From Ignavibacteriaceae bacterium (GTDB lineage: Bacteria > Bacteroidota > Ignavibacteria > Ignavibacteriales > Ignavibacteriaceae): a stretch of 53,536 bases of DNA. Of the stretch, positions 13,616 to 40,286 are shown piece by piece. Location of the stretch: assembly GCA_013388525.1 (NCBI GenBank), contig JACAFA010000240.1, forward strand, positions 1 to 53,536, in the 5' to 3' direction. Positions within the stretch are counted from its first letter, which is position 1, and every line of letters begins with the position of its first letter. The notes beneath the pieces were generated by a model. It was not told where the DNA came from. It saw only the letters and a list, made by a program, of their open reading frames with translations, and made no database searches. Position numbers and translations under genes: made by a program.

Positions 13616-14743
13616 TTACTTCAATAAAATCATCTTCTTTGTTTCTGTAAAGCTGCCTGCATTGATCTTGTAGAAATAAATTCCACTGGTAAGATCAGAA
13701 GCATCGAAATTCACTGTGTAGTTTCCGGCAGTTTTTGTTTCGTTCACTAATGTTGCAACTTTCTGTCCGATTGAGTTGTAAACATCAAGAGTCACAAATC
13801 CTTCAACTGGTAAACTATAGTTAATCTTAGTTGATGGGTTGAATGGATTCGGGAAGTTCTGATCAAGTGCATAAGCTGTTGGAACTGAACCGGGCACATC
13901 ATTTACATCCGTGGTAAAAGTATGGTTACCCATTGTTCCAAAAACGTTGTCAACTCTGCAGGACCAGGCGAGTGCAAATAATTCAATTACATGATTAGCA
14001 CCAATTGCATTTTCATTATCGTTTCCGCCGCCATTGTTAACTGCATCGCCATAGTTGATGCCGTATTTGTACTGAATCTGGAATATTGTATAAGCAGGAA
14101 ATGTAACTATACCTGAGAATATTTTATCACCGGCAGTTTCATCTCCGTTTGTACCATCATCGAACATAGGAATCATTCTGTCAATCTGGTTATCAGGCCA
14201 ACCTAAATCGGGCCACTGAAGCGGAGGTGTTCCTCCAGCGATATGAACTGTATTTACAACAGGAAATGGCTGATTATTTATTGCAGAGACTGCATTGTTG
14301 CAATCAACAGTAAATAACACTTCTGTTGGCTGATTTGTTACTGTTTGAAGTGTACCATCATTGAAAGCACGAGATACAGTTGCTTCACCTGCATCATAGT
14401 CTGACTGAGTCAGAATATATATTCTGTTATCTCCACCTTCCCAGCTGTTTGGGGTATAGAAAAATTTATAACCCTTAATGATGGTATCGCCAACCGAGGC
14501 ATTAGTGATAGTAATCGGGTTTTCGCTAACATAGAAATTTGGGTCAATAGGATTTGGAACAAGGTCATATCTTCCCCAACCATTAAAGTCTCCTCGAGCA
14601 GCAACTGTGTCGCCAGGTGTAAATCTGCCGGAGAGAATTTCGATCTCCATATTGCATTCCCAATTAACGAGAATATCTTTTGGCTGTGCGAAAGTTAAGC
14701 CAGTAAGTAAGATCAAAAAAGAGACGTAAATTAGTTTTTTCAT
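13616..14743 (-). CDS. Secreted protein with type IX sorting domain and starch-binding-like N-terminus
   Basis: A signal peptide (MKKLIYVSFLILLTGLTFAQ) leads a 375-residue exported protein. Residues 45-60 (DTVAARGDFNGWGRYDL) recall the GDFNGW signature of CBM20/CBM48-type carbohydrate modules; a second similar beta module with a FDDGTNGDETAGDKIFSG segment follows. The last 75 residues (NFPNPFNPSTKINYSLP ... GIYFYKINAGSFTETKKMILLK) are a classic T9SS type A C-terminal sorting domain, so it should be secreted or attached to the surface. It has its own AGGAG ribosome-binding site and follows the PorV-like gene by 101 bases. A glycan-binding role is a suggestion only. Confidence 0.85.
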   Translation of the reverse strand: MKKLIYVSFLILLTGLTFAQPKDILVNWECNMEIEILSGRFTPGDTVAARGDFNGWGRYDLVPNPIDPNFYVSENPITITNASVGDTIIKGYKFFYTPNSWEGGDNRIYILTQSDYDAGEATVSRAFNDGTLQTVTNQPTEVLFTVDCNNAVSAINNQPFPVVNTVHIAGGTPPLQWPDLGWPDNQIDRMIPMFDDGTNGDETAGDKIFSGIVTFPAYTIFQIQYKYGINYGDAVNNGGGNDNENAIGANHVIELFALAWSCRVDNVFGTMGNHTFTTDVNDVPGSVPTAYALDQNFPNPFNPSTKINYSLPVEGFVTLDVYNSIGQKVATLVNETKTAGNYTVNFDASDLTSGIYFYKINAGSFTETKKMILLK

Positions 14744-14844: not shown

Positions 14845-15846
14845 TCAAAATCTAATACCAAGCGAAAAATGCTGCGTGTAATCAAGTACACCAAAATCCT
14901 GGTAAGCATAATCTACCTTTACACCAAAGTCATTTGTGAAATTATAATTAAGACCAACACCTGCTGTCAATCCTTCTTCAGAATTTGTGAGGAACAATGA
15001 TTTATAGCCAATTCTGAATGCTATCAGATTATTGAACATATATTCACCGCCAATATTAATTGACTCATCGTTATCGTTCGGGTGAAGAGCATCAAGAGCT
15101 AAAGTAAACCGATGCTCTTCATTATTTAAGACATCCATTGCAAGTCCTATTCTGAAAGTCAAAGGCAGTGGAAATTCATCAGTTTGCAACGATGCAAGAA
15201 TCTGATCATTATTTCCATAATTATTAGGGTCGATATCATGCTGAACAAGCAAATCTTTTCCGTCCATTTTCATACCTGTTCCGAAGTTTGTTATTGTTGC
15301 ACCAATTCTTAAACCATAAATATCTGAATGGAACAGAACTCCAAGATCCATTGCAAAAGCGCTTGCAGATGTATTCCATATCTTCTGCTGAATATATTTT
15401 ACTGTTCCGCCTAATGAAAATCTGTCAGTCAGATTATAAGCATAAGTTAAGCCCATTGACATATCGTGTGCTGAGAATAGCTGACCAGTTCCATCTTGTT
15501 CAGAAAGTGTAGTAATTTCCATATCACCATAATCAAGATAAGTAAGGTTAAGACCAACTGTTCCGGCATCACCAAGTTTAACCATTGCACCAGCCCAGTT
15601 GTAGGTTATATCTGCAAACCATCTTGAATGAGAAAACATTGCTTCGTTGATATCGCTTCTTGAAGCACCTGCAGGATTCCAATATAAAGAGCTGACATCG
15701 CTGGCTGTTGCAATAAAAGCTCCGCCCATTGAAATTGCACGCGGACCAATACCAATGTTAAGAAATGGTGCTGATGTTGAGCCTACTTTTGATTGACCAA
15801 ACATACAGACAACAGAGATTAGAGAAACCAATAAAACCTTTTTCAT
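14845..15846 (-). CDS. PorV/PorQ-family outer membrane beta-barrel protein
   Basis: The start chosen is ATG at 15846, behind GGAGAATATAATT, rather than the ATG 15 bases further upstream; it gives a proper signal peptide (MKKVLLVSLISVVCMFGQ). The mature protein begins with the family hallmark GIGPRAISMGGAFIATASDVSSLYWNPAG and continues as alternating amphipathic strands up to a terminal aromatic (HFSLGIRF), typical of a 14-strand FadL-like barrel. PorV shuttles T9SS cargo to the attachment complex, and PorQ-like paralogues are common. It lies directly after the giant sorted protein and TonB receptor genes, which suggests a dedicated secretion or uptake partner. Confidence 0.87.
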   Translation of the reverse strand: MKKVLLVSLISVVCMFGQSKVGSTSAPFLNIGIGPRAISMGGAFIATASDVSSLYWNPAGASRSDINEAMFSHSRWFADITYNWAGAMVKLGDAGTVGLNLTYLDYGDMEITTLSEQDGTGQLFSAHDMSMGLTYAYNLTDRFSLGGTVKYIQQKIWNTSASAFAMDLGVLFHSDIYGLRIGATITNFGTGMKMDGKDLLVQHDIDPNNYGNNDQILASLQTDEFPLPLTFRIGLAMDVLNNEEHRFTLALDALHPNDNDESINIGGEYMFNNLIAFRIGYKSLFLTNSEEGLTAGVGLNYNFTNDFGVKVDYAYQDFGVLDYTQHFSLGIRF

Positions 15847-15860
15847 AATTATATTCTCCA

Positions 15861-18800
15861 TTATTTGATTAAGGCAAACTTGCCAATCTTGGTTCCAATA
15901 TTCGGTGCATCTATAACAAAAACATATATGCCGAAAGCAACATCTAAATTTTCTTCGCTTCTTAAGTTCCAGTACACATCACCAACATACAGGTTTTCTG
16001 CATAGAGCGTTTTAACTAATTCCCCGCGAACTGTAAAGATTGAAATTTTGGATCCGGGGGGAACATAAGTAAATCTTATTTCTCTTTCTCCTCTACCGCT
16101 TGTTTGCGTGCTTAACAGCCTCTGTTCTCCTTGATGAGTAACCACATAAGGATTTGGCACAACTTTAATTTTATCTAATTGGTCCTTCGCAAGACTGTTA
16201 TCTATTCTTGCTCCTTTCATAGTAAAGAAGAAACTATCATTACCATTGAATGGTTTTAGAGTAGTGATATTAAATGTACCTGCAGATTCCAAATCAGAAA
16301 GAGTTCTGTACCTAATATTCACGCGCCATGTTCTTACATATTGACCTTGCAAGTACTCTTTAAACCAAATGCTATAAGTATAGCTTAAAGTCCCTACTCT
16401 TAAATAAGCAAAATCTATATATTGATTTTTTGTAAGATTCTTTACTTTAAAGTTTACTGGTCTTGCCGGCACTATATTGCTTGAGCCGCTACCAATAGTA
16501 TCGACAATTGATGTATCGACAATTGTATCATAAAACTCTATGACATAATCGTTCGGATTGCTGTAGCCATCGTATTTCGGATTAAGTGCAGTAAATCTGA
16601 CGACGTCATAGTTTGGCGGTGGAGAGGTATTTATATCCTTAAAATATGTTGTATCTAAGGCAACTTCATCATTATATAACTGCACCCTGAAGCCTTGACG
16701 AACAGGAGTTTCTCCTGCAAACAATTCGTAACTGTCAATAAGCACCTGGTAATCTGCCTTATAATATTCCTGACCACTGACATTCACCTTCAGACCATTT
16801 ACAAAAATCGTATCAGTACCAGCGGGTAATGGAATTGAATCGTTTGGATTTACGATATAAGTCTGATTAGCTAATGGGACAAAAACAGTATCCGGTGTTT
16901 GTAAATCAAGAAGCGACCAGTTAGCTGTAATGTCTGTTAATCCAGTATCCTGAAAAACTATCTGATAATTAAATCCATTCCTGACTTGTTCTTCATCAAT
17001 TATTTCAACGGCTGCATAACCTGTTCCAAAAAATGGGTCTGATTTGGTAAGATCATCAAGAAATGCATTTGAGTAACCCGCAGGTCTTCTGCCAGGAGTA
17101 ATTAAAGCAGTATTATCATCAAGTATAACCTCACCTGTATTAGAACGGAAAATAAATTTAGAATTTTCCTCGGGGAATATATCCGGTGAACCATCTCCAT
17201 GATCAAATGCACAAACAGCATAGTAATATGTAATTCCCGGAGTAACGGTTGAATCAACAAATCTGTTAACTATGCCTGAGTTAGTACCAAAATAAAATGT
17301 TGTACCACCAAAAGCTTCTAACAATTCGGCGCTTGGAATAAAAAAGCCGCTATATTCATTGGAGAGATCATACTGGGCTATCGGTTTATCAAAAGTCAGG
17401 ACACCCAATGCATTAGTAATTGTTCTTGCATCTCTGAAATTAGCATCAGTTGCTCTGTAAATTTTATAGCCCTCAAAATCCTGTAGCTTGGTAACGAAGT
17501 CTCTTGATTTCTCAGTATCCTCACCATCCCAATAAATAACAACCTTTCCATCATTTTGAGTAATAGTAATCACAGGTTTTTTAGGAGCTTGTGGAAAAGC
17601 ATAACCTGCATTATAAATCTGCTGAACTATCTTTTTATTTTTTACTATATCATCATAGTCCTCACCAAACAAGAGAGAAACCGAAAACCGCTCAGGAATT
17701 TTCGGAAATAGCGGGAAAAAGCCTGAGCTGTAAATAAAATCACCATCCTGTGGAGTCGGAGGAACCACATCAAATCTTCCCGGTGTCATTCTTCCCCAAA
17801 GCGATGAGTCTATACTAAGGTCCGGCGCACTTTGAAGTTCAAAAAAGTTAAATCCGGTAAGCCCTATTTGATCTGATTCATCCGGATCAGTTTTACCAAA
17901 ATTAGGTTCTCCCTGAGTAGGAATCCCATCTCCTTCACCAACATCGGGTCCAGGATATCCATCGTCATCAGGTCCTAATCCATCAGCACCAACATCATCA
18001 AAAAGCGGATCCCAATCTTCATCTTCATCAATATCATTATCGCGTCTTTCATCAATGAGAAGGTCATTTATTCCGGCACCAGTTCTAAAGTTAATATATG
18101 ATAATCCGGTTAATCCTCTTCTGATTCTTGTTTCATAGTGGGTTGCCTGGTTTTCATCAACTAATCCATCCAAATCATTATCAATTGCATCATTAGCTGA
18201 GGGATCGGGAATGAATACTTCCTGACCATTAATAATTGCAAGCGTTGCATTACCTTCTCTTAATTGAGTTACTCCCGGCTGAATGATAAATCTTACTCCC
18301 AAAGAGTATACAGTATCTGTTGTTGCTTTTACAGTGTGCAGAGTTCGTTTATAAATTCTTAATCCCTGAGAATCAACAGTATCTGATATTAAAACAACCT
18401 GATCACCGGCATTATAAATTACGGCATTAAAATCAGCGGCAACAAATCTAGGTGAGGTAGATTTTGAATCATTATCATTATCAATTCCATCAAACGGATT
18501 TCCGGGGGACTCGAGGAATGCGTAGCCAACATAGCCAACTTTCTGTCCTCTGTTTCCAATACCATCACTATCCCAGGAGTATGTAATCCAGTCTTGAACG
18601 TCAAAAAATCCGAGGTCATCCTGGCTATCACCATCTCCACCTGCAAGTGTTCCGACAATTGTTCCAAAGTTTGCTTTTTTATAAAGAGTTGTACCATCAT
18701 TATTAATTTCATATAACCAGAAGATAGCATCCTCAGCTAAGAAGCTTGACCATTGAAAACCTCTTTGCCGCATACGGAGAGCCATGCCATTTCTTGAAAG

Positions 18801-19388
18801 ATTTGTTGTGTCGGGTCTGAAGTTTCCATTAAATTCATCATCCCAATCATCATCAGCTTCAAAGAACGATTCCTGGTCAGCATTTTGAATGCCTCTTCCA
18901 AAATATCCGAACCATTGGGTAGTTCCATTTTCATCTTTCCAATTTCTTGCAATGGGGTCATTCCATCCTTCAATAGGCCAGGTGTTTGGAAGGTGACTCA
19001 TAGCAACACCTGTCACATTCGGATTTCTGAATCCGGGTGTTGGGTTCCAGCCCCAGAAATAACCGCTTGGGCTTTTTTCATCGAACTGTCCTTTACGGGG
19101 ACCCCGGGAAATAACAACTGATTGAAGTGTATCATTCAGGTTATTGATGAACTCAACACCAATTAAAGGGATGCAGTCACCAATATAATTTTCACCTGAG
19201 CCTAAGGGCCATTCGCCTCTAATATCTACTCCGGTATTTACACCAGCTATCTGACCATCGTTGTAAAAAGTTATTGCGGCTCTGTTACCTGTATGATATC
19301 CGATTGTTAATAAATTTGGGTCACTAGTTCTCTGAGCGAAAACGCTGAACCCAATTGTTAGAAATAATAAGACATATAGTTTTTTCAT
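15861..19388 (-). CDS. Giant secreted protein with type IX sorting domain
   Basis: This 1175-residue protein has a signal peptide (MKKLYVLLFLTIGFSVFAQ) and no recognised enzyme motif. Its central part carries Asp/Asn-rich calcium-binding-like stretches (DGIDNDNDSKS, NDAIDNDLDGLVDEN, DERRDNDIDEDEDWDP), similar in spirit to thrombospondin type 3 or dockerin-like loops. A fibronectin-III-like segment follows near residue 640. The C-terminus (VVPNPYVV...ISIFTVRGELVKTL...GIYVFVIDAPNIGTKIGKFALIK) is a FlgD-like/T9SS type A sorting domain. The gene lies 18 bases after the TonB receptor and touches the PorV-like gene, so the three form one operon. A cell-surface partner of the receptor is likely; its ligand is unknown. 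Confidence 0.85.
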   Translation of the reverse strand: MKKLYVLLFLTIGFSVFAQRTSDPNLLTIGYHTGNRAAITFYNDGQIAGVNTGVDIRGEWPLGSGENYIGDCIPLIGVEFINNLNDTLQSVVISRGPRKGQFDEKSPSGYFWGWNPTPGFRNPNVTGVAMSHLPNTWPIEGWNDPIARNWKDENGTTQWFGYFGRGIQNADQESFFEADDDWDDEFNGNFRPDTTNLSRNGMALRMRQRGFQWSSFLAEDAIFWLYEINNDGTTLYKKANFGTIVGTLAGGDGDSQDDLGFFDVQDWITYSWDSDGIGNRGQKVGYVGYAFLESPGNPFDGIDNDNDSKSTSPRFVAADFNAVIYNAGDQVVLISDTVDSQGLRIYKRTLHTVKATTDTVYSLGVRFIIQPGVTQLREGNATLAIINGQEVFIPDPSANDAIDNDLDGLVDENQATHYETRIRRGLTGLSYINFRTGAGINDLLIDERRDNDIDEDEDWDPLFDDVGADGLGPDDDGYPGPDVGEGDGIPTQGEPNFGKTDPDESDQIGLTGFNFFELQSAPDLSIDSSLWGRMTPGRFDVVPPTPQDGDFIYSSGFFPLFPKIPERFSVSLLFGEDYDDIVKNKKIVQQIYNAGYAFPQAPKKPVITITQNDGKVVIYWDGEDTEKSRDFVTKLQDFEGYKIYRATDANFRDARTITNALGVLTFDKPIAQYDLSNEYSGFFIPSAELLEAFGGTTFYFGTNSGIVNRFVDSTVTPGITYYYAVCAFDHGDGSPDIFPEENSKFIFRSNTGEVILDDNTALITPGRRPAGYSNAFLDDLTKSDPFFGTGYAAVEIIDEEQVRNGFNYQIVFQDTGLTDITANWSLLDLQTPDTVFVPLANQTYIVNPNDSIPLPAGTDTIFVNGLKVNVSGQEYYKADYQVLIDSYELFAGETPVRQGFRVQLYNDEVALDTTYFKDINTSPPPNYDVVRFTALNPKYDGYSNPNDYVIEFYDTIVDTSIVDTIGSGSSNIVPARPVNFKVKNLTKNQYIDFAYLRVGTLSYTYSIWFKEYLQGQYVRTWRVNIRYRTLSDLESAGTFNITTLKPFNGNDSFFFTMKGARIDNSLAKDQLDKIKVVPNPYVVTHQGEQRLLSTQTSGRGEREIRFTYVPPGSKISIFTVRGELVKTLYAENLYVGDVYWNLRSEENLDVAFGIYVFVIDAPNIGTKIGKFALIK

Positions 19389-30006: not shown

Positions 30007-31422
30007 TTAATAACGTTTTATAAAATCCGTCCCCTCTTTTGTATCTTTAAGTGTAATACCAAAGTTCTCTAATTTTTTTCGGATATCATCAGCTAACTGA
30101 AAATTCCTATCGCTTTTTGCTTTTAGCCTGATATCAATTAAAAGTTTAATAAGTTCATTCTCAAGCCAAGAATCTTTTTTCTCTTCTTTTTCCTCGAAGG
30201 AAATAATTCCTAAAACATTATCAGCAGTTTTAATTAAAAAATTCTTTACTGAAATATAAAAATTAAGATGGATATTGTCATTTTCAGCGATAGCTTTATT
30301 TACTTCCTTCACAAAATCAAATAAGACCGCAACCGCCTGAGGTGTATTAAAATCATCGTCAAGTGCATCTGCAAAACGTTTTTCGAAATTCTGAAAATCA
30401 AAATTTGGATCAACACCACCCGGTTTGCTTTTAGTCAATGCTGTTTCAATTGTTGAACGAAGATTTTTCAACTTCTCAAGCCCTTTTTCCGCAGCATCAA
30501 GAAGTTCATTATTAAAATCAACCGGGCCTCTGTAATGTGCCTGTGCAAAGAAAAGCCTAATAGCTTCAGCAGAATATTTTGCCAGCACTTCTCTTGCGGT
30601 GAAAAAGTTGCCAAGTGACTTTGACATTTTTTCTTTATTGATATTAAGAAATCCAAAGTGCAGCCAGTACTTCACAAAAGGTTTTTTTGTTGCGGCTTCA
30701 CTCTGTGCAATTTCATTTTCGTGATGCGGAAATATCAGATCATTTCCGCCAGCGTGAATATCAAAAGTTTCACCGAGATGCTTGCAGCTCATTGCAGAAC
30801 ATTCGATGTGCCATCCCGGACGCCCATTCCCCCATTCACTTTTCCAGAATGGTTCACCTTCTTTTGACTTTTTCCACAAAGCAAAGTCAAGCGGATTCTG
30901 CTTTTCTTCCATTACTTCAACTCTTGCACCAGCTTCAAGCTCATCAATCTTTTTCCCGCTTAACTTGCCATAAGTTTTAAAAGATGACACATTATAAAAA
31001 ACATTTCCGTCAACATTATAAGCCGCTCCATTTGCAATAAGTGCCTTTATCATACCAAGAATTTCTGAAATATTCTCAGTTGCTCTTGGATAAAGCGTCG
31101 CCGGTTTAATTCTTAATCTTTTAATGTCTTCAAAAAAAGCATCTGAATATTTTTTTGCTACTTCACTTGCGGGAATTTTTTCTTCAATGGATTTTTTAAT
31201 AATCTTATCATCAATATCAGTAAGATTCATAACATACTTCACATTATATCCTTTATATTCGAGGTACCTTCGGATAATGTCAGCCATTATAAATGTCCGG
31301 GCATTACCGATATGGAAATAATCATAAACGGTAGGTCCGCAAATGTACATACCTACATTTGGTGGATTCAACGGAACAAATTCCTCGATTTGCTTTGTTA
31401 ATGTGTTGTATAATTTCAGCAT
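30007..31422 (-). CDS. cysS: Cysteinyl-tRNA synthetase
   Basis: This class I aminoacyl-tRNA synthetase charges tRNA-Cys. The zinc-ligand Cys28 (YICGPTVYD) and the HIGH motif variant FHIGNAR lie near the start. GWHIECSAMS and HAGGNDLIFPHHENEIAQSEA supply the rest of the zinc site, and EKMSKSLGN is the KMSKS loop. The 471-residue length is standard. Downstream is a receiver gene; upstream, 59 bases away, rluD on the same strand. No missing motif. Confidence 0.97.
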   Translation of the reverse strand: MLKLYNTLTKQIEEFVPLNPPNVGMYICGPTVYDYFHIGNARTFIMADIIRRYLEYKGYNVKYVMNLTDIDDKIIKKSIEEKIPASEVAKKYSDAFFEDIKRLRIKPATLYPRATENISEILGMIKALIANGAAYNVDGNVFYNVSSFKTYGKLSGKKIDELEAGARVEVMEEKQNPLDFALWKKSKEGEPFWKSEWGNGRPGWHIECSAMSCKHLGETFDIHAGGNDLIFPHHENEIAQSEAATKKPFVKYWLHFGFLNINKEKMSKSLGNFFTAREVLAKYSAEAIRLFFAQAHYRGPVDFNNELLDAAEKGLEKLKNLRSTIETALTKSKPGGVDPNFDFQNFEKRFADALDDDFNTPQAVAVLFDFVKEVNKAIAENDNIHLNFYISVKNFLIKTADNVLGIISFEEKEEKKDSWLENELIKLLIDIRLKAKSDRNFQLADDIRKKLENFGITLKDTKEGTDFIKRY

Positions 31423-31481: not shown

Positions 31482-32474
31482 TCAGATTTCAGGTGTTCTT
31501 AGTTTCTTAAGTAATAACTTCATATCATCCGGAAGTTCAGAATCAAAAAACATTTTTCTCTTTTCCAAGGGATGATAGAATCCGACGGTTTTTGCGTGAA
31601 GAGCTTGTCTTGGCATAATCTCCAGCAGATTCTGAACCCGTGCTTTAATCTTTGGCAACTCTGAACCATAATTTATTTGTCTCCCTCCATAAGTCGGGTC
31701 ACCAAAAACCGGTTTTCCAATGCCGGATAAATGCACTCTGATTTGATGAGTTCTTCCAGTCTTTAAGTTAATTTTTAAATATGAAGTAAATTCAAATTCT
31801 TCCAGAACCTCATATAATGTAAGAGCTGTTCTTCCTTCATTTTCACTGATTGAGAATTTTTTTCTATCCTTTTTACTTCGAACAATGTTAAAAGATATTT
31901 CACCTTTTTTCTCTTTAAATTTTCCCCAGCAGATGGCGTGATACTCACGATCAACAGTTCGTTTACTGAACTGCTCTGCAATTTTTGCGTGAGTAAAATC
32001 ATCCTTGGCAACAACAAGCAATCCGCTTGTATCTTTATCTAGGCGATGAATAATTCCCGGTCTCCCCGGTTCATTTAATCCACTGAGTTTTTTTGTATGA
32101 TGAAGAAGTGCATTTACAAGTGTGCCTGTGTAATTTGCATAAGCCGGGTGAGCAACCATTCCTGCGGGTTTATTTATTACAAGCAGATACTCGTCTTCAT
32201 AAAAAATATCAAGCGGAATATTTTCAGGTTCAGTTTCTTCAGGTCGTGGTGTTATCGGGTGGACTGCTTCAATTATGTCAAACGGCTTAACCTGATAGTT
32301 TGATTTAACAACAGCACTATTTACTGTTACAAATCCGGCATCAATTAATTTTTGAACTTTTGAGCGGGTAGCATTTTCAATTGATTTGGAAAGAAAAACA
32401 TCCAGCCTTTCTTTCTTCTTCCCTTCGGGAATTTCAAAGCGATATTTCTTTTCCTTTATCAGTTTCACCATCAT
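31482..32474 (-). CDS. rluD: RluD-family 23S rRNA pseudouridine synthase
   Basis: An N-terminal S4 RNA-binding domain (KERLDVFLSKSIENATRSKVQKLI...) precedes the RluA/RluD catalytic domain with the diagnostic GRPGIIHRLDKDTSGLLVVAK, where Asp is the catalytic residue, and the GRTHQIRVHL strand. It should isomerise uridines in 23S rRNA helix 69. Exact site specificity cannot be read, so the symbol is by family. Its start overlaps the preceding lspA gene by 41 bases, part of the same long operon. Confidence 0.9.
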   Translation of the reverse strand: MMVKLIKEKKYRFEIPEGKKKERLDVFLSKSIENATRSKVQKLIDAGFVTVNSAVVKSNYQVKPFDIIEAVHPITPRPEETEPENIPLDIFYEDEYLLVINKPAGMVAHPAYANYTGTLVNALLHHTKKLSGLNEPGRPGIIHRLDKDTSGLLVVAKDDFTHAKIAEQFSKRTVDREYHAICWGKFKEKKGEISFNIVRSKKDRKKFSISENEGRTALTLYEVLEEFEFTSYLKINLKTGRTHQIRVHLSGIGKPVFGDPTYGGRQINYGSELPKIKARVQNLLEIMPRQALHAKTVGFYHPLEKRKMFFDSELPDDMKLLLKKLRTPEI

Positions 32475-33123
32475 TCAAACCATCATTTATATTTTTCGAA
32501 GATGGTTCATTTACAGAATTAAGACTATCAGTGTTTGCACGTGTAGCAGCTAACTCTTCAGCTTCCTTAATTTTTTTATCTTCAGCTTCGTGATGCCTGT
32601 AGAAGAATAACAGAATTAAAACACCAATTGAAACAGCAGCATCTGCAATATTGAAGATTGGCCATCTATCATAATTTCTTCCAAAAATTGAAAAGTTGAA
32701 GAAATCAAAATCAAAAAAATCAACGACCTTTCCATAGAACAATGGTGCATAGTCATAAATGAGCCCGTAAAACATCCTGTCAATAACATTTCCTACGGCA
32801 CCACCGAGAATTAACGCAATTGCTATTTTAAGAGAAAGAGATTTGTTGCGAATAATAAAAAGATATATCAGCAAACCGAAACTTGCTACCAGGGAAAAAA
32901 CAGAAATCAGAAGTTTAAAGTCAGAGCCCGGGTCAAAACCAAATGCCATTCCCGGATTTTCTGTAAATGTTATTCTGAAGAAGTCATCAATAACCGGAAT
33001 TGATTCACCCAGATACATACCTTCAAATTTTATGTTCAATGAAGGAATAGATATTCCTTTAATATAAAACTTTGATAATTGATCGGTGACAATTACAGCC
33101 AGAGTTAAATAAATTATTTTCAA
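32434..33123 (-). CDS. lspA: Lipoprotein signal peptidase II (second tandem copy)
   Basis: Signal peptidase II cleaves lipoprotein signal peptides after lipidation in the inner membrane. Four hydrophobic segments, FTENPGMAFGF, GGAVGNVIDRMFYG and the FNIADAAVSIG motif give both catalytic aspartates (in IDR and IAD). A charged 50-residue tail (EAEDKKIKEAEELAATRANTDS...) is unusual for the family. Its start overlaps the end of the first copy by four bases. The symbol is shared with the first copy because function is predicted to be the same. Confidence 0.88.
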   Translation of the reverse strand: MKIIYLTLAVIVTDQLSKFYIKGISIPSLNIKFEGMYLGESIPVIDDFFRITFTENPGMAFGFDPGSDFKLLISVFSLVASFGLLIYLFIIRNKSLSLKIAIALILGGAVGNVIDRMFYGLIYDYAPLFYGKVVDFFDFDFFNFSIFGRNYDRWPIFNIADAAVSIGVLILLFFYRHHEAEDKKIKEAEELAATRANTDSLNSVNEPSSKNINDGLNDGETDKGKEISL

Positions 33124-33716
33124 TGAGTGTCCTCTCTCTCTTCGACAGCCTGTGGAATCATTTCTTCCCGATGTTTATTGCTCTTTAAGGTGAGTATCAA
33201 ATAAATAAGAAGAAAGACACCCGATAGAATACTTATGTCTGCGAAATTAAACACATAATTACCATGAATGTTATCAAAAATAAAAAATTTGAAAAATCTT
33301 ACATCAAGAAAGTCCACTACGTTACCCTGAAACAACGGGGCATAATTATAAAACAGACCATAGAATATTCTATCAAATAAATTTCCTGCTGCCCCGCCAA
33401 GGATGAGAGCTACGGCAACTTTTATTTTCTTGTCAGATTTTTTTTCAAAAATCAGAAAGCAGAAAAAACCAATACAAGTAAGAAAAGTGATAACGAATAT
33501 CAGGTCCTTTAATGATTCACCCGGATCAATTCCAAAAGCAATTCCGGGATTTTCAACGAGAGTAAAATGCAAAACATTATTTATAATCGGTTTACTTTCG
33601 CCCGGATACAGACCCGTGTGATTTATGTTAAACCATGGTATGCTGAATCCTCTAACGAATACTTTACTTATCTGATCTATCAGAAGTAGAATTAATGAAA
33701 GAAAAAGAATTTTCAA
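33120..33716 (-). CDS. lspA: Lipoprotein signal peptidase II (first tandem copy)
   Basis: The 198-residue protein is a paralogue of the gene that follows it. It carries VENPGIAFGI, GGAAGNLFDRIFYGLFYN and the FNFADISILSG motif, so both catalytic aspartates are present, and four membrane helices. It lies 35 bases after the TraR-like gene and overlaps the second copy by four bases (ATGA). Both copies keep the full active site, so neither is obviously a relic. They may differ in lipoprotein substrates. Confidence 0.9.
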   Translation of the reverse strand: MKILFLSLILLLIDQISKVFVRGFSIPWFNINHTGLYPGESKPIINNVLHFTLVENPGIAFGIDPGESLKDLIFVITFLTCIGFFCFLIFEKKSDKKIKVAVALILGGAAGNLFDRIFYGLFYNYAPLFQGNVVDFLDVRFFKFFIFDNIHGNYVFNFADISILSGVFLLIYLILTLKSNKHREEMIPQAVEEREDTH

Positions 33717-33751: not shown

Positions 33752-34438
33752 TTACTTCTTTTCCTGTCTTTGCTTTATTGGCAAGCAATGCTGACTATGC
33801 GGAACTGCTTCGAGCCTTTCTTTTGGAATCAAAGGACAGGTCTCACAAAGATGCTGTGGTTCATCAATACATTCGATGCAAATACCATACGTGCCTGCAT
33901 CTATTCTCTTCAATGCATCTTCCAGATATCCCAGAAATTTATTTTCTCTTTGCGCATAAAGAAAAGTCTTTTCTCTTTCCATCGCATCTGTTCCCTGTTC
34001 AGCCATATGTAAAGAGTACGGTGAATTTTCGTTTATATATTCTCCGGTTGTAGGATCGAGCATCTGTTCCTTTAGATTTTGAAGCTGTTCAATTATCTCA
34101 TCTCTTTTATCGAGAATGATTTGTCTGAAATGTTCCAGATCCTTTTTACTGTATCCTTTAATCTTATGAATGGCTTTATTACGTGATTCAACAATATCCT
34201 CAACCTTAACTTCAACAACAGGTTTAGTTGCTTTTATTTTTTTAACAGAGACGGCTTTTACTGCTTTCCTGAGAGGTTTAATTTCCTTTTTAACAACAGC
34301 ACTTTTAGCCGGTGATTTTTTAGCGACAGCGATTTTCTTAACCGGCTTTTTAGCAGTTGTTTTCTTTTGTGGTTTTTTAGCAGCAGCTTTTTTAGCCATT
34401 TTCTTTTTGGCAGGTTTCTTTACTACTTTTTTTGCCAT
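33752..34438 (-). CDS. TraR/DksA-type zinc-finger protein with Lys/Ala-rich N-terminal tail
   Basis: The first 80 residues are a histone H1-like Lys/Ala/Pro tail (AKKPAKK-type repeats). A DksA-like coiled coil (about residues 95-185, DLEHFRQIILDKRDEIIEQL...) and a C-terminal zinc-finger region (about 188-225) follow. DksA/TraR proteins bind RNA polymerase through the secondary channel; the basic tail suggests DNA or RNA binding. The zinc finger is unusual: CIEC and CETC lie only 8 residues apart, and the usual last CxxC is CLPI, so one expected Cys is absent. It sits between ileS (17 bases) and the tandem lspA genes. Confidence 0.85.
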   Translation of the reverse strand: MAKKVVKKPAKKKMAKKAAAKKPQKKTTAKKPVKKIAVAKKSPAKSAVVKKEIKPLRKAVKAVSVKKIKATKPVVEVKVEDIVESRNKAIHKIKGYSKKDLEHFRQIILDKRDEIIEQLQNLKEQMLDPTTGEYINENSPYSLHMAEQGTDAMEREKTFLYAQRENKFLGYLEDALKRIDAGTYGICIECIDEPQHLCETCPLIPKERLEAVPHSQHCLPIKQRQEKK

Positions 34439-34455: not shown

Positions 34456-37400
34456 TTAAATATTTAATTTTTCTATTTTAATTTTAATTTCATCCCCGCT
34501 GATTTTCCAGTCCTGAATGAATCCGCCAGCGAGTTCTGTTTTATTTTCAATTTTATCCGCAAGAGTTTCGGCAGAAATGTAATTTGCAAAAGTTCTAATT
34601 GCAAATGTAAAATCTGAACCAGCCATAAACTCAATGTTTATTTTATCGGTAACCTGGAAGCCTGCATCTTTCCTCATATTCTGTACTCTGTTTACAAATT
34701 CTCTTGCCAGCCCTTCCGAAATAAGTTCTTTACTAAGCTGTGTATCTACAGCTACAGTCAAACCATTTTCGCTTTCAACAATCCAGCCTGTAACTTGTTC
34801 GCTTTGAACCTCAACATCATCAGGTGTGATAGAATAATTTTCACCATCAATTTCAATGTTTACCGGATTACCCTTCTCAATTAAACCAATTTCCGTGGAA
34901 GTGAAATTTTTTATTCTCTCTGCCACCGGTTTAACTTTATTCCCAAATTTCGGTCCGATCGTTTTAAAGTTTGCTTTAGCCGATTTGTGAACGAGAGTGG
35001 AATCGTCATCCAGAATTTCCAGTTCTTTAATATTAACTTCTTCAAGGATTACATCTTTCATCTTTGACAGAGCATCTCTCATATTGTTTCCGACAACAAC
35101 CATTAATTTTTTTAATGGCTGCCTGACTTTTAAATTTGATTTTGCTCTGATTGCCCGCACAAGGTAAACAACATGCTGGGCAACATCCATTTTCAATTCA
35201 AGTTCTCTGTCAATTTCACCAGTTTCAGGCAAATCAGCCAGGTGAACCGATTCAATATTTTCACTCTTTGTTACTGAATTCAAATTTCGGAACAATTCTT
35301 CAGCAAGAAACGGAGCAAACGGTGCAATGAGTTTCGAAACTGTAACCAGACATTCGTAAAGAGTCTGATATGCAGCTAATTTATTTTCATTCATCTCAGA
35401 TTTCCAGAAACGTCTTCTGCATCTTCTCACGTACCAGTTTGAAAGATGATCAATAGTAAAATCAGAAATTGCTCTTGCAGCCTTGGTTACCTCATACTCA
35501 TCCATCAGTTTGATGTTATTTTCAACCAGTGAATTAAGCTTTGAAAGAATCCATCTGTCTATTTCTTCACGCTTAGGTAATGGAACAGAATTTTGTTTAT
35601 TTTCAAATCCATCAATATTAGCATAAAGAGCAAAGAAAGCATAAGTATTGAGCAAAGTTCCAAAAAATTTTCTCTGGACTTCAACGAGCCCTTCTTCATC
35701 AAAAAGAGTCGGACGCCACGGCGGACTGTTTGTAACAAGGTACCATCTGGTAGCATCTGCCCCATATTTTTCAAACAGAACAAACGGGTCAACTGTGTTG
35801 CCTTTGGACTTGGACATTTTCATTCCGTTCTTATCGAGTATCAGCTCATTTACAATGACATTTTTATAAGCAACATTATCAAATAACATTGTGGCAATTG
35901 CATGAAGAGTATAGAACCAGCCGCGGGTTTGATCAATTCCTTCACAAATGAAATCTGCAGGAAAAGCTTTCTGTTCAAACCACTCCTTATTCTCAAATGG
36001 ATAATGATATTGTGCAAAAGGCATTGCACCGGAATCGAACCATACGTCAATCAGCTCAGGAGTTCTCTTATATATTTTTCCATTTATTTCGAACAACACT
36101 GTATCAACAAATGGTTTGTGTAAATCTATGTTTTCGACTTCACTAACAGGAATTCTTTTATCGTTTTCAACGATGAATCCTTTTTTCAATTCTTCGATGC
36201 TGCCAACCGCAAACGAGTCACCATCTTCGTTAACCCAGATAGGAAGCGGAGTTGCCCAGAATCTGTCACGCGATAAAGCCCAGTCTTTATTTTCTTCAAG
36301 CCAGTTGCCAAATCTTCCGGAACCAACTTCAGGCGGCTGCCAGTTAATTGTTTTGTTGAGTTCAATCATTCGTTTTGCAACGCTTGTTGTTCTGATGAAC
36401 CATGACTCGCGAGCATAATAAATAACCGGAACATCCTGGTTTCGCCAGCTGAATGGATAAGTGTGAACTATTGTTTCCTTTTTATAAAGCTTGCCTTCTG
36501 ATTTTAACTGATTTATAATTTCTTTATCTACATCTTTAACAAACTGTCCTGCATAATCAGTTACTTCCGGAGTAAATCTTCCGCCTCTGTTAACCGGCTG
36601 CAGCATTGGTAAATTATATTTCTTCGAAAGATCATAATCATCAGCACCAAATGCAGGAGCTATGTGAACAATACCTGAGCCGGTATCTGTACTGACAAAA
36701 TCTCCAAGGCAAACGAAGAAAGCTTTTTTGTTAGGTTTGACATAAGGCAGTAATTGTTCATATTCGATTCCTTCCAAATCTTTACCTTTCATCTCATGAA
36801 GAATTTCATATTCACCATCAAGAGTTGAAAGTAATTCTTTCGCAAGAATAATTTTCTTTTCCTTATTAAGAACCTTCACATAATCCACATCCGAACCAAC
36901 AGCAAGAGCAACGTTTGAAATCAGTGTCCACGGTGTTGTTGTCCAAACAAGAAAGTATTCATCTTTATCTTTTAATTTAAAGAGAACGTAAACCGATGGG
37001 TCTTTTGTTTCTCTGTAACCAAGTGCCAGTTCTGCCATAGAAAGAACTGTCTCAGATTTAGGATCCTGCGGAACAATTTTATAATCTTTATAAATAAGAC
37101 CTTTTTCAAAAAGTTTTTTAAGTGCCCACCATACAGATTCGATATATTCGTTGGTTAAAGTGATGTATGCTGATTTAAGATCAATCCAGTAGCCCATTCG
37201 TTCGGTCATCTTTTCCCAGAGATCAAGATAAGTGAATACAGAATCGCGGCAAGCCTTATTGTATTTTTCTATTCCGTATGTTGCAACTTCACTTTTGTTT
37301 TTAATGCCAAGAGTTTTTTCAACTTCAATTTCAACCGGAAGTCCGTGAGTATCCCAACCAGCTTTTCTTTCAACACGATAACCGCACATTGTTTTGTATC

Positions 37401-37608
37401 TGCAAACAATATCTTTTAAAGTGCGTGCCATTACGTGATGAATGCCGGGTTTACCGTTTGCTGTTGGAGGACCCTCATAAAAAGTAAACAACTTTTCAGA
37501 TGAACGGAACTGAATGCTCTTTTCGAAAATTTTTCTCTCTTTCCAGAATTGCAGAATATTCTGCTCGGTTTCCGGAAATTTTATTTTTTCTAATCCTTGT
37601 TTATACAT
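34456..37608 (-). CDS. ileS: Isoleucyl-tRNA synthetase, type 2, with rearranged HIGH motif (GIHH)
   Basis: The 1050-residue enzyme charges tRNA-Ile. Its C-terminal part and the ETVLSMAELALGYRE region fit the eukaryote-like IleRS2 type rather than the shorter bacterial type 1. The editing domain (WTTTPWTLISN) and KMSKS loop (GMKMSKSKGN) are intact. At residues 55-58 the class I signature that is normally HxGH reads Gly-Ile-His-His, with the first and third positions swapped; I confirmed the codons at 37435-37446. IleRS2 proteins with this GxHH form are reported to be extremely resistant to mupirocin while remaining active. The gene follows a membrane protein gene by 8 bases in a long operon. 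Confidence 0.97.
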   Translation of the reverse strand: MYKQGLEKIKFPETEQNILQFWKERKIFEKSIQFRSSEKLFTFYEGPPTANGKPGIHHVMARTLKDIVCRYKTMCGYRVERKAGWDTHGLPVEIEVEKTLGIKNKSEVATYGIEKYNKACRDSVFTYLDLWEKMTERMGYWIDLKSAYITLTNEYIESVWWALKKLFEKGLIYKDYKIVPQDPKSETVLSMAELALGYRETKDPSVYVLFKLKDKDEYFLVWTTTPWTLISNVALAVGSDVDYVKVLNKEKKIILAKELLSTLDGEYEILHEMKGKDLEGIEYEQLLPYVKPNKKAFFVCLGDFVSTDTGSGIVHIAPAFGADDYDLSKKYNLPMLQPVNRGGRFTPEVTDYAGQFVKDVDKEIINQLKSEGKLYKKETIVHTYPFSWRNQDVPVIYYARESWFIRTTSVAKRMIELNKTINWQPPEVGSGRFGNWLEENKDWALSRDRFWATPLPIWVNEDGDSFAVGSIEELKKGFIVENDKRIPVSEVENIDLHKPFVDTVLFEINGKIYKRTPELIDVWFDSGAMPFAQYHYPFENKEWFEQKAFPADFICEGIDQTRGWFYTLHAIATMLFDNVAYKNVIVNELILDKNGMKMSKSKGNTVDPFVLFEKYGADATRWYLVTNSPPWRPTLFDEEGLVEVQRKFFGTLLNTYAFFALYANIDGFENKQNSVPLPKREEIDRWILSKLNSLVENNIKLMDEYEVTKAARAISDFTIDHLSNWYVRRCRRRFWKSEMNENKLAAYQTLYECLVTVSKLIAPFAPFLAEELFRNLNSVTKSENIESVHLADLPETGEIDRELELKMDVAQHVVYLVRAIRAKSNLKVRQPLKKLMVVVGNNMRDALSKMKDVILEEVNIKELEILDDDSTLVHKSAKANFKTIGPKFGNKVKPVAERIKNFTSTEIGLIEKGNPVNIEIDGENYSITPDDVEVQSEQVTGWIVESENGLTVAVDTQLSKELISEGLAREFVNRVQNMRKDAGFQVTDKINIEFMAGSDFTFAIRTFANYISAETLADKIENKTELAGGFIQDWKISGDEIKIKIEKLNI

Positions 37609-37616
37609 TGGTAAAC

Positions 37617-38228
37617 TTATTTAAGATCTTCATATCTTTTTATTAATTCTCTTTCAGCATGTATAAATTCTTTCAGCTCCTGATCGATGCGTTCCTTTTT
37701 CAGAATTATATTTTTTGCTGCTGCTTCAGCATCATTAACTATTTTCTCAGCTTTAATCTGAGCTTCTTTAATTAAAAGTTCTGCTTCTTTTTTTGAATCG
37801 GCAGCGGTTGCTTCGAGAACTTTAACCTTTTCTCTCAAAATCAGAGCTTCCTTTTCACCGCTTACAATCTCGTGAATTGCCATACCAAAAATTCCCATAG
37901 CTCCAAGTGTAATATTACGAAGACTAAAAAGTATGAGATTCTCGCTTAGCAGTTCAAAGGTTCCGAAGTATTCATTAAAGAAAATTATTATAGCTATACT
38001 AATTAATGTAACCGCAACAATCACAGCAAAAACAACTTTTCCGCCAGTCTGCCAGCCGAGAGATCGGTTTATATACCAGCCGCAGGCAAAACATAAAATT
38101 GAAAGTACAAACCAGACTGCAAAATTTCTTTCACCAAAGTTGAATAGTGACGTGTTTAAAAAATCAGAGGCAAAAATTAATAAACCCAATAAAACCGGAA
38201 CGCTGTATTTGGTAAAAAACTTTTTCAT
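37617..38228 (-). CDS. Hypothetical membrane protein with C-terminal coiled coil
   Basis: Four hydrophobic segments fill about residues 8-125 (including VPVLLGLLIFASDFL, FAVWFVLSILCFACGW, VVFAVIVAVTLISIAIIIFF and LRNITLGAMGIFGMAI). They are followed by a predicted cytoplasmic coiled coil of some 75 residues rich in Glu/Lys/Ala (KEALILREKVKVLEATAADS...EAAAKNIILKK). I do not recognise the family. It overlaps the purine nucleoside phosphorylase gene by four bases and is eight bases from ileS. The DivIVA-like neighbour two genes upstream makes a cell-envelope or division role possible, no more. Confidence 0.8.
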   Translation of the reverse strand: MKKFFTKYSVPVLLGLLIFASDFLNTSLFNFGERNFAVWFVLSILCFACGWYINRSLGWQTGGKVVFAVIVAVTLISIAIIIFFNEYFGTFELLSENLILFSLRNITLGAMGIFGMAIHEIVSGEKEALILREKVKVLEATAADSKKEAELLIKEAQIKAEKIVNDAEAAAKNIILKKERIDQELKEFIHAERELIKRYEDLK

Positions 38229-39049
38229 TTCAGCCTCTTAATTAATTCTTTCATAATTAAAGTCATTTTTGGTTCTGCCTGCATCGCTGTTGCAATTATT
38301 TCTTCAACGTTAACAGGTTTAAGTGAATCAGGAAAGCATTCATCTGTTACAATACTGATTCCGAGCACCTTCATTCCCATATGATTAGCAACAATATTTT
38401 CAGGAATGGTTGACATCCCAACTACGTCTGCACCTGTTGCTCTCAGGAATCTGTATTCCGCTTTTGTTTCGAGATTCGGTCCGGGCACGGCAACATAAAT
38501 TCCCTTCTGAACTTTAATTTTATTTTCGAGTGCAATTTTTTCAGCAAGATCAATCAGTTCTAAACTGTAAGGTTCACTCATATCAGGAAATCTTGGTCCC
38601 AGTTCATCTTCATTTTTTCCGATTAACGGATTATCGCCGAGCATATTAATGTGATCAACCATTATCATCACATCGCCTTTTCTGTATTGAGGATTCATTC
38701 CTCCGCAGGCGTTGGAAACAAGTAATGTTTCCACACCAAGAAACTTCATAACACGAACAGGGTACGTTATCTGCTGCATTGTGTAACCTTCATAGAAGTG
38801 AAATCTTCCCTGCATAGCTACAACATTTTTACCGTTCAATGTTCCGAATATCAATTTGCCATGATGTGATTCAACTGTTGAAATCGGGAAATGCGGAAGG
38901 TCTTCATAATCAATTTGATGCCTGACATTAATTTCATTTACAAGACCGCCCAAACCGGTACCAAGGATAATTCCGATCGGATACTTTTCCGTTGTATGTT
39001 TCCGGATTACTTCAAGTGTCTCATTAATATTTGAAATTAACCTGCTCAT
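38225..39049 (-). CDS. Purine-nucleoside phosphorylase, trimeric class
   Basis: This 274-residue enzyme phosphorolyses purine nucleosides to base and ribose-1-phosphate. The family motifs are the glycine-rich phosphate loop GIILGTGLGG, STVESHHGKLIFG, MQGRFHFYEGY, LLVSNACGGMN and VPGPNLETKAEYRFLR. At the base-binding position where the human enzyme has Asn243, this protein has Asp236 (SIVTDEC). An Asp here is also seen in methylthioadenosine phosphorylases, so adenine-type substrates should be considered. It lies between divIVA (2 bases) and a membrane protein gene (4-base overlap). Confidence 0.92.
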   Translation of the reverse strand: MSRLISNINETLEVIRKHTTEKYPIGIILGTGLGGLVNEINVRHQIDYEDLPHFPISTVESHHGKLIFGTLNGKNVVAMQGRFHFYEGYTMQQITYPVRVMKFLGVETLLVSNACGGMNPQYRKGDVMIMVDHINMLGDNPLIGKNEDELGPRFPDMSEPYSLELIDLAEKIALENKIKVQKGIYVAVPGPNLETKAEYRFLRATGADVVGMSTIPENIVANHMGMKVLGISIVTDECFPDSLKPVNVEEIIATAMQAEPKMTLIMKELIKRLK

Positions 39050-39051
39050 AC

Positions 39052-39588
39052 CTATAAAAGTTTGTCAACTATTCCATCAACATCAATATCAAATTTTTCC
39101 GGTGTTTCCTGAACCTTTGATTTTTTTGGTTCTTCACCGGCATCTTTAACTTTTCCTTCCAGCAGATATGCCTGAGAGTTGACAATAGCTTTTAATCTCG
39201 CTATTACCAAATTCTTTTCTTCCCGCAAAGTAATAACGGCACTCCGCATTTCATTGGCAATATCTTCAGCATTTTTAATTATCTGTGAAGATTTAATTTC
39301 CGCTTCCCTGACAATTAATTCCGCTTGTTTCTTTGCCGACTCTATTGCCTGAGCAGCAGTTTCCTGATGTTTTAAAAGTGTCTCTTGTAAATTCTTTTCT
39401 ATCTTTTGAAACTCCGTAACCTTTGCATTCAGATTTTCAACTTCCTGTTTAAGGGTTTCATTTTCATTAATCAACTCTTCCATTTCAGAAGATATTTTAT
39501 CAAGAAAAGCCTGAACTTCATCAATATTATATCCTCTGAAAGATTTTTCGAATTCCTGCTTCTTAATAAAGAGCGGCGAAAGTTTCAT
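39052..39588 (-). CDS. DivIVA-domain coiled-coil protein
   Basis: The N-terminus contains the DivIVA signature KQEFEKSFRGYNIDEVQAFLDKI, with the membrane-binding Phe/Arg region slightly upstream. A long coiled coil (about residues 35-130, rich in Glu/Lys/Ala) follows, then a charged tail ending IVDKLL. In other bacteria DivIVA proteins sit at curved membrane and recruit division or polar growth factors. It lies between yggS (4-base overlap) and a purine phosphorylase gene. The presence of yggS beside divIVA is a known genomic association. Confidence 0.88.
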   Translation of the reverse strand: MKLSPLFIKKQEFEKSFRGYNIDEVQAFLDKISSEMEELINENETLKQEVENLNAKVTEFQKIEKNLQETLLKHQETAAQAIESAKKQAELIVREAEIKSSQIIKNAEDIANEMRSAVITLREEKNLVIARLKAIVNSQAYLLEGKVKDAGEEPKKSKVQETPEKFDIDVDGIVDKLL

Positions 39589-40286
39589 GACTGCCTCCAG
39601 TCTTTTAAAGTGTTTCGTTGACCAAAGATTGCTGAACCTATTCTTAGCATAGTTGCTCCTTCCTCAATTGCAATTTCGTAATCGCTTGTCATTCCCATTG
39701 AAAGCTCTCTAAGGTCAAACCCATTTTGATTAATTTCATCTTTTAATTTACGTAAATCAGAGAAACTTTGCCTTATAACTCTCTCATCATCAGTGAACGG
39801 AGCCATTGTCATCAAACCAACTAATTCAATGTTTGGGAGAGATGAACAATGTTCTACGACATCTAATACTTCAGCGTAGTTACTCAGACCTGACTTTGAA
39901 TCTTCGAATGATGTTTTAACTTCCAACAAAATTTTTTGAACCTTGTTTAACTTTTTTGCTTCCTTGTTTATTTCATCTGCAAGAATTATTGAAGCTACTG
40001 AGTGAATATAGGTTGCAGCTTTAACTGCATACTTTACTTTATTTCTCTGAAGAGTGCCGATAAAATGCCAGGTAACTTTATCACCAAGAATTTCATACTT
40101 ATCTCTGAGTTCCTGAGCTTTGTTTTCACCAAAATCGGTTATACCCAGTCTGTTCGCTTCACTTATAGCATCTATACCGAAGAACTTAGATACTGCAACT
40201 AGCCTGATTTCTTGCGGATTTCGCTTAATTTCGGCACATTTTATACCTATTGTCTCCTTGAGTTGCTTGATATTTTCTGCTATCAT
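39585..40286 (-). CDS. YggS-family PLP-binding protein
   Basis: The 233-residue protein is an alanine-racemase-fold, single-domain PLP protein involved in pyridoxal phosphate homeostasis. Lys34 (LVAVSKFFG) is the expected Schiff-base lysine. FGENKAQELRDKYE, WHFIGTLQRNKVKY and SMGMTSDYEIAIEEGATMLRIGSAIFG are family hallmarks. It is the first gene of the long minus-strand operon and overlaps divIVA by four bases. Nothing is missing. Confidence 0.93.
   Translation of the reverse strand: MIAENIKQLKETIGIKCAEIKRNPQEIRLVAVSKFFGIDAISEANRLGITDFGENKAQELRDKYEILGDKVTWHFIGTLQRNKVKYAVKAATYIHSVASIILADEINKEAKKLNKVQKILLEVKTSFEDSKSGLSNYAEVLDVVEHCSSLPNIELVGLMTMAPFTDDERVIRQSFSDLRKLKDEINQNGFDLRELSMGMTSDYEIAIEEGATMLRIGSAIFGQRNTLKDWRQS

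Follow-up and report, generated by a model that had tools for sequence, protein, structure and literature searches.

The 53,536-nt window, that is, the whole stretch of Ignavibacteriaceae DNA analysed here, encodes an isoleucyl-tRNA synthetase (IleRS) that reads Gly-Ile-His-His (residues 55-58) at the place where class I synthetases carry H-x-G-H. We consider it highly probable that this gene encodes the native, chromosomal and presumably only IleRS of an ignavibacterium, a type 2 enzyme with the known GxHH motif that was inherited and has been kept by purifying selection. The GxHH phenomenon itself is already published, whilst this enzyme and its lineage are new members. The gene and the motifs on which its identification draws are as follows:

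34456..37608, minus strand: ileS, type 2 isoleucyl-tRNA synthetase, 1050 aa, identified by TIGR00392 and by PDB sequence and fold matches
37435..37446, minus strand: GIHH signature (swapped HxGH), residues 55-58, codons GGC ATT CAT CAC (37446-37435)
36928..36945, minus strand: editing-domain WTTTPW, residues 222-227, intact and invariant in a 36-sequence alignment
36631..36648, minus strand: GADDYD stretch of the editing domain, residues 321-326
35806..35820, minus strand: KMSKS loop, residues 597-601, intact

The identification of this frame as an IleRS in the first-pass annotation was upheld, the protein scoring 976.2 bits against TIGR00392 (isoleucyl-tRNA synthetase), above the curated cut-off of 621.4. 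Its best PDB sequence matches (phmmer, residues 12-1026) were the P. megaterium IleRS2 entries 8c8w, 8c8v, 8c8u and 8c9d (919-933 bits), followed by T. thermophilus 1ile (858 bits), whilst the P. megaterium IleRS1 chains scored 389-398 bits over residues 11-865. Foldseek similarly ranked P. megaterium IleRS2 structures first for a model of the window enzyme, with identities of 42-47% to the P. megaterium and T. thermophilus IleRS2 structures and of 23-28% to the lower-ranked IleRS1 structures. Type 2 was assigned on greater nearness to IleRS2 than to IleRS1 structures along the length of the protein, C-terminal domain included, and the phmmer and Foldseek ranks agree that the window enzyme is a type 2 IleRS.

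The signature stands in the context FYEGPPTANGKP-GIHH-VMARTLKD, and its codons confirm the annotated exchange of positions 1 and 3. Alignment with IleRS references by HMMER placed GIHH column for column on the canonical motif, HVGH, of T. thermophilus IleRS (1ile) and wild-type P. megaterium IleRS2, and likewise on the swapped motif of the P. megaterium mutant 8c8w, the top match. Gly55, His57 and His58 were invariant in the 36-sequence alignment. An AlphaFold2 model built from this alignment (mean pLDDT 84.0, with 78 in the motif block and 48-53 in blocks 431-450 and 521-540) has helix 56-74 beginning at the motif; its full-length superposition on 8c8w was loose (rmsd 9.7), and the role proposed for His57 draws on published mutants and structures, not on the model. 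The GADDYD stretch probably holds the catalytic Asp of the IleRS editing domain, by a correspondence that we infer rather than read from an alignment; this residue is D333/D334 in the S. griseus and yeast enzymes (PMC4861432). The one other class I synthetase examined in the window, CysRS (30007-31422), keeps a standard HIGN signature, which gives no support to the idea that every class I synthetase of this organism is swapped.

The G/AxHH swap, catalysis by its third-position His and an effect of up to 10^3-fold on the mupirocin Ki were reported by Brkic et al. 2023 (PMC10485003), whose tree held 86 G/AxHH and 77 HxGH IleRS2 sequences with at least two origins of the swap. GIHH, in which positions 1 and 3 are exchanged, has the sequence signature of this G/A-x-H-H type. 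According to the portions of that paper drawn on here, the mupirocin Ki of the D. radiodurans ALHH enzyme dropped from 6.6 mM to 8.1 uM with HVGH, and GVHH put into two canonical IleRS2 raised the Ki about 200- and 430-fold (Ki with GVHH being 35 uM in T. thermophilus and 460 uM in P. megaterium), with activity of these artificial mutants down by up to about 10-fold. Its authors explain the effect by a shifted helix tip in IleRS2, where the third His can stand in for the first, together with a clash between this His and mupirocin. The S. griseus IleRS has a mupirocin Ki of 10 mM (PMC4861432). The statement in the first-pass annotation that GxHH IleRS2 enzymes remain active and are highly mupirocin-resistant therefore agrees with published work (PMC10485003).

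Applied to the window enzyme, Gly55 would occupy the first motif position, and His57, at the third, would most likely take the transition-state role of the first His of HxGH, a takeover proposed to work because the IleRS2 helix tip is shifted away from the adenine. His57 would also clash with bound mupirocin, so that a very high Ki, somewhere between tens of micromolar and the millimolar range, could be expected. Both the catalytic takeover and the hyper-resistance are extended to this enzyme by homology with other enzymes; strong natural mupirocin resistance of the enzyme is a reasonable prediction, and resistance of the organism may soundly be inferred. A Ki value is not readable from the motif alone, since the published values vary widely and GVHH mutants lose activity. 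Our literature searches, as judged from their listings, turned up neither an assay of an ignavibacterial IleRS nor a susceptibility test, and those on mupirocin in Ignavibacteria and in Bacteroides returned nothing usable.

The motif was mapped over related genomes in several overlapping sets. A protein search scored 7997 candidates, and GIHH was present in all of the best 120 taken for motif reading as well as in the query. Eighty named species-genome loci, drawn from at least 560 stretches encoding a relative, comprised 67 GIHH, 7 GVHH and 5 GLHH (GxHH in 79/80), the sole remaining locus (L021) holding a truncated gene that starts past the motif. The family search covered two samples defined by Stygiobacter electus (G001): 149 genomes from its class and 128 from its phylum. 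Every one of the 127 genes fetched from the phylum sample encoded GxHH (92 GIHH, 35 GVHH), the 128th genome, G001 itself, being read through locus L035. From the class sample, 80 of the 149 genomes, chosen by us for near full-length matches, were fetched (30 of them also in the phylum sample), and their genes were GxHH without exception (75 GIHH, 2 GVHH, 2 GLHH, 1 GMHH). HxGH was absent from all 177 fetched class and phylum genes. Named loci and sampled genomes overlap (e.g. L046 and G140), and the sets are not independent. Named Bacteroidota records of Parabacteroides, Riemerella, Bacteroides and Prevotella also encoded GIHH (4/4), as did Acetoanaerobium noterae of the Clostridia; Paenibacillus had HIGH and Sutcliffiella HAGH. 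The Acetoanaerobium motif may indicate that GIHH is older than the phylum, or that it moved between phyla. This clostridial IleRS (L266) retains its CxxC pairs and lies on a 2.6-Mb record labelled plasmid.

Relatives use every Gly codon (four) and either His codon at the motif; the amino acids are thus fixed whilst the bases drift, which indicates purifying selection. IleRS above the cut-off was detected in 142/149 class and 128/128 phylum genomes, one per genome in listings that scored only 5 (class) or 6 (phylum) candidates each, the doubled rows of G110, G193 and G228 being two stretches of one frame each. Seven class genomes had no IleRS above the cut-off: in two (G102 and G012) the gene was split or partial, and the remaining five gave weak matches only. 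Amongst the 5-6 candidates per genome, a second over-cut-off IleRS was not listed in any of the 149 class or 128 phylum genomes.

The oddness of the motif, taken alone, might suggest an assembly or sequencing error, or else a decayed paralogue that has fallen out of synthetase use, but we regard the probability of either as negligible. Sequencing error was rejected because the best 120 homologues agree and the motif codons drift synonymously in relatives. Decay was rejected because the KMSKS and editing motifs are intact and the sampled genomes list no other over-cut-off copy.

A FastTree phylogeny of 263 rows, computed with the motif and cysteine columns removed and with 2 of the 265 rows (<800 residues) left out, grouped the query with Ignavibacteria and needed one motif change, a count that carries little weight because just two rows in the tree have HxGH. 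An IQ-TREE analysis of 50 rows, drawn at random within clades, agreed on the position of the query, with Ignavibacterium and kin as the nearest rows. Deep branches were weak in several places (support 24 to 80), and with only two HxGH rows the ancestral state consequently rests on fixation rather than on the tree. The motif would trace back to the common ancestor of the sampled phylum or to an earlier one.

The position of ileS within a same-strand block of housekeeping-type genes bears on the same question. Its neighbours in the window are:

39585-40286, minus strand: alanine-racemase-N family gene (yggS-like)
39052-39588, minus strand: DivIVA gene
38225-39049, minus strand: phosphorylase superfamily gene
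37617-38228, minus strand: coiled-coil ORF with a DivIVA match below threshold
33752..34438, minus strand: DksA/TraR-like gene, 228 aa, directly downstream of ileS
33120..33716, minus strand: lspA copy 1, signal peptidase II (PF01252)
32434..33123, minus strand: lspA copy 2, signal peptidase II (PF01252)
31482-32474, minus strand: pseudouridine synthase gene
30007-31422, minus strand: cysS

The DksA/TraR-like protein has a long, lysine/alanine-rich N-terminal stretch and gave no Pfam match; its tail matches places annotated TraR/DksA beside ileS in L262-L264. When eight neighbours were searched by tblastn against a set of 83 loci, made up of the 80 named ones and 3 Bacteroidota records with short contigs included, matches were found to the DksA-like tail in 75, to lspA in 67 and to the phosphorylase in 65, with Chlorobia loci mostly showing the DksA-like match alone. 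The order ileS-dksA-lspA is also annotated in Parabacteroides, Riemerella and Bacteroides (ileS, TraR/DksA, lipoprotein signal peptidase), in records that PLSDB labels as plasmid. The tandem lspA copies of the window are 41% identical and overlap by 4 bases, and two lspA places were seen in 11 of the 83 loci (e.g. L001, L005, L008, L033, L078), with one or none in the others. Scans of the 53,536-nt window for tRNA and Rfam families returned no matches.

Staphylococcal MupA and MupB are also mupirocin-resistant IleRS enzymes, and their models match the window IleRS along most of its length (846.7 and 837.5 bits); tblastn, moreover, found mupA on many staphylococcal plasmids. These matches would be consistent with a recently acquired resistance gene of the mupA/mupB kind, borne by a plasmid or transposon and selected by antibiotic. 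However, the scores fall far under the NCBIfam exception-model cut-off of 1900 bits, at less than half of it, plasmid mupA is only about 41% identical to the window IleRS, and none of the 276 plasmid records with a match reached 60% identity. The housekeeping block around ileS is, furthermore, common to relatives, and the motif is carried by every gene fetched from the phylum sample. In its simple form, an acquired gene of this type is contradicted by scores, plasmid identity, shared neighbourhood and the spread of the motif through the phylum sample, and we consider recent acquisition very unlikely. Inheritance is favoured by the agreement of four lines: the motif is fixed in the phylum as sampled, the listings give no genome more than one IleRS above the cut-off, relatives share the gene order, and no plasmid match is close; whether the motif was acquired or ancestral, as the first-pass annotation had asked, is therefore answered as ancestral in the lineage.

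Compatible with this inherited, native enzyme, and differing solely in why the motif has been kept, is a reading in which slow-growing lineages retained GIHH because it tuned their type 2 IleRS for catalysis or fidelity, with resistance as a by-product. We hold this to be possible, if somewhat doubtful. Fixation of the motif across the sampled phylum is consistent with it, as are the preferential occurrence of IleRS2 in slower-growing bacteria (PMC10485003, Discussion) and the kcat of the D. radiodurans enzyme, 45.5 per s with native ALHH versus 24.4 in the HVGH mutant (PMC10485003, Table 1). Yet the same HVGH mutant has a lower KM for Ile and ATP (Table 1), GVHH slows canonical IleRS2, and no fidelity advantage appears in the portions of that paper drawn on here. 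It is possible that the motif was first selected for resistance to natural mupirocin, or for a catalytic or fidelity role.

The inherited IleRS of the window further departs from T. thermophilus 1ile in its CP1 cysteine cluster, the two halves of which correspond to:

37048..37065, minus strand: DPKSET, residues 182-187, in the columns of 1ile CPRC (CP1 cysteine cluster, first half)
36433..36450, minus strand: SWRNQD, residues 387-392, in the columns of 1ile CWRC (CP1 cysteine cluster, second half)

The CP1 ligand positions are thus occupied by D182, S185, S387 and N390, and the second cysteine cluster, present in 1ile, is also gone. Both clusters are what we take to be zinc sites in T. thermophilus IleRS. 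Addition of zinc during expression of the S. griseus IleRS agrees with zinc binding (PMC4861432). All four CP1 cysteines were kept in 88 of the 263 tree rows. By clades that we named ourselves, they were present in 17/17 rows of the Stygiobacter clade and 53/53 of the clade with Chrysopegis kryptomonas, and in 0/48 of the query clade, 0/36 of Chlorobia, 0/13 of a third clade and 0/35 of a Bacteroidia subclade; the wider Bacteroidia-type clade of 70 rows had none with four and 2 with three. States within the query clade comprised PQDPKSET (23 rows) and the intermediates PQCPRSET (14 rows) and PFCWR (2 rows), the presence of which suggests stepwise CP1 loss. The fewest CP1 changes were 5 on the 263-row tree and 3 on the 50-row tree, deep branches being weak. 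Most Chlorobia and some members of the query clade share the end letters DPKS/FSWR, which may have arisen by convergence or through an earlier loss with later regain or transfer.

Literature searches on zinc in IleRS yielded no paper on CP1 cluster loss, as judged from their listings, and the nearest parallel was zinc loss in GluRS (PMC4381286). On balance, we think it fairly probable that the swap is ancestral and essentially universal in Bacteroidota, Ignavibacteriota and Chlorobiota, leaving the target mupirocin-insensitive, and that in addition several branches, that of the window enzyme amongst them, lost the CP1 zinc cluster, with DPKS/FSWR reached convergently in Chlorobia and many of the query clade, to give a zinc-free IleRS.

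Published GxHH/AxHH IleRS2 (S. griseus, D. radiodurans; PMC10485003) share the swap and an intact KMSKS with the window enzyme, which differs in coming from Ignavibacteria and in missing the CP1 cysteine cluster; the word beginnings 'bacteroid' and 'ignavibacter' are absent from the main text of that paper, figures apart. P. megaterium IleRS2 (8c8v with HVGH; 8c8w, the GVHH mutant) provided the best sequence matches and stood among the top three fold matches at 42% identity, but the swap in 8c8w is man-made whereas that of the window IleRS is natural. P. megaterium also has an IleRS1, and its IleRS2 keeps the CP1 cysteines. T. thermophilus IleRS (1ile; 47% identity as a fold match) is type 2 like the window enzyme but has HVGH and retains both cysteine clusters. 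In this sampling the swapped motif, presented in 2023 as a means of resistance, is the ordinary condition of the whole phylum, and metagenome surveys that scored ileS genes of this kind as acquired resistance would give a misleading picture. The CP1 losses, for their part, offer a natural series (4, 3, 1 or 0 cysteines) for probing the role of zinc in IleRS.

Elsewhere in the window, a 1175-aa ORF (15861-19388) gave no Pfam match; it adjoins a PorV-like gene (14845-15861) and lies close to one whose product has a type IX sorting domain, Por_Secre_tail (13616-14743). Two large GDSL-hydrolase/TPR proteins (7832-9694 and 11679-13562) are encoded near a carbamoyltransferase (3723-5555), with a further ORF (9704-11686) between them.
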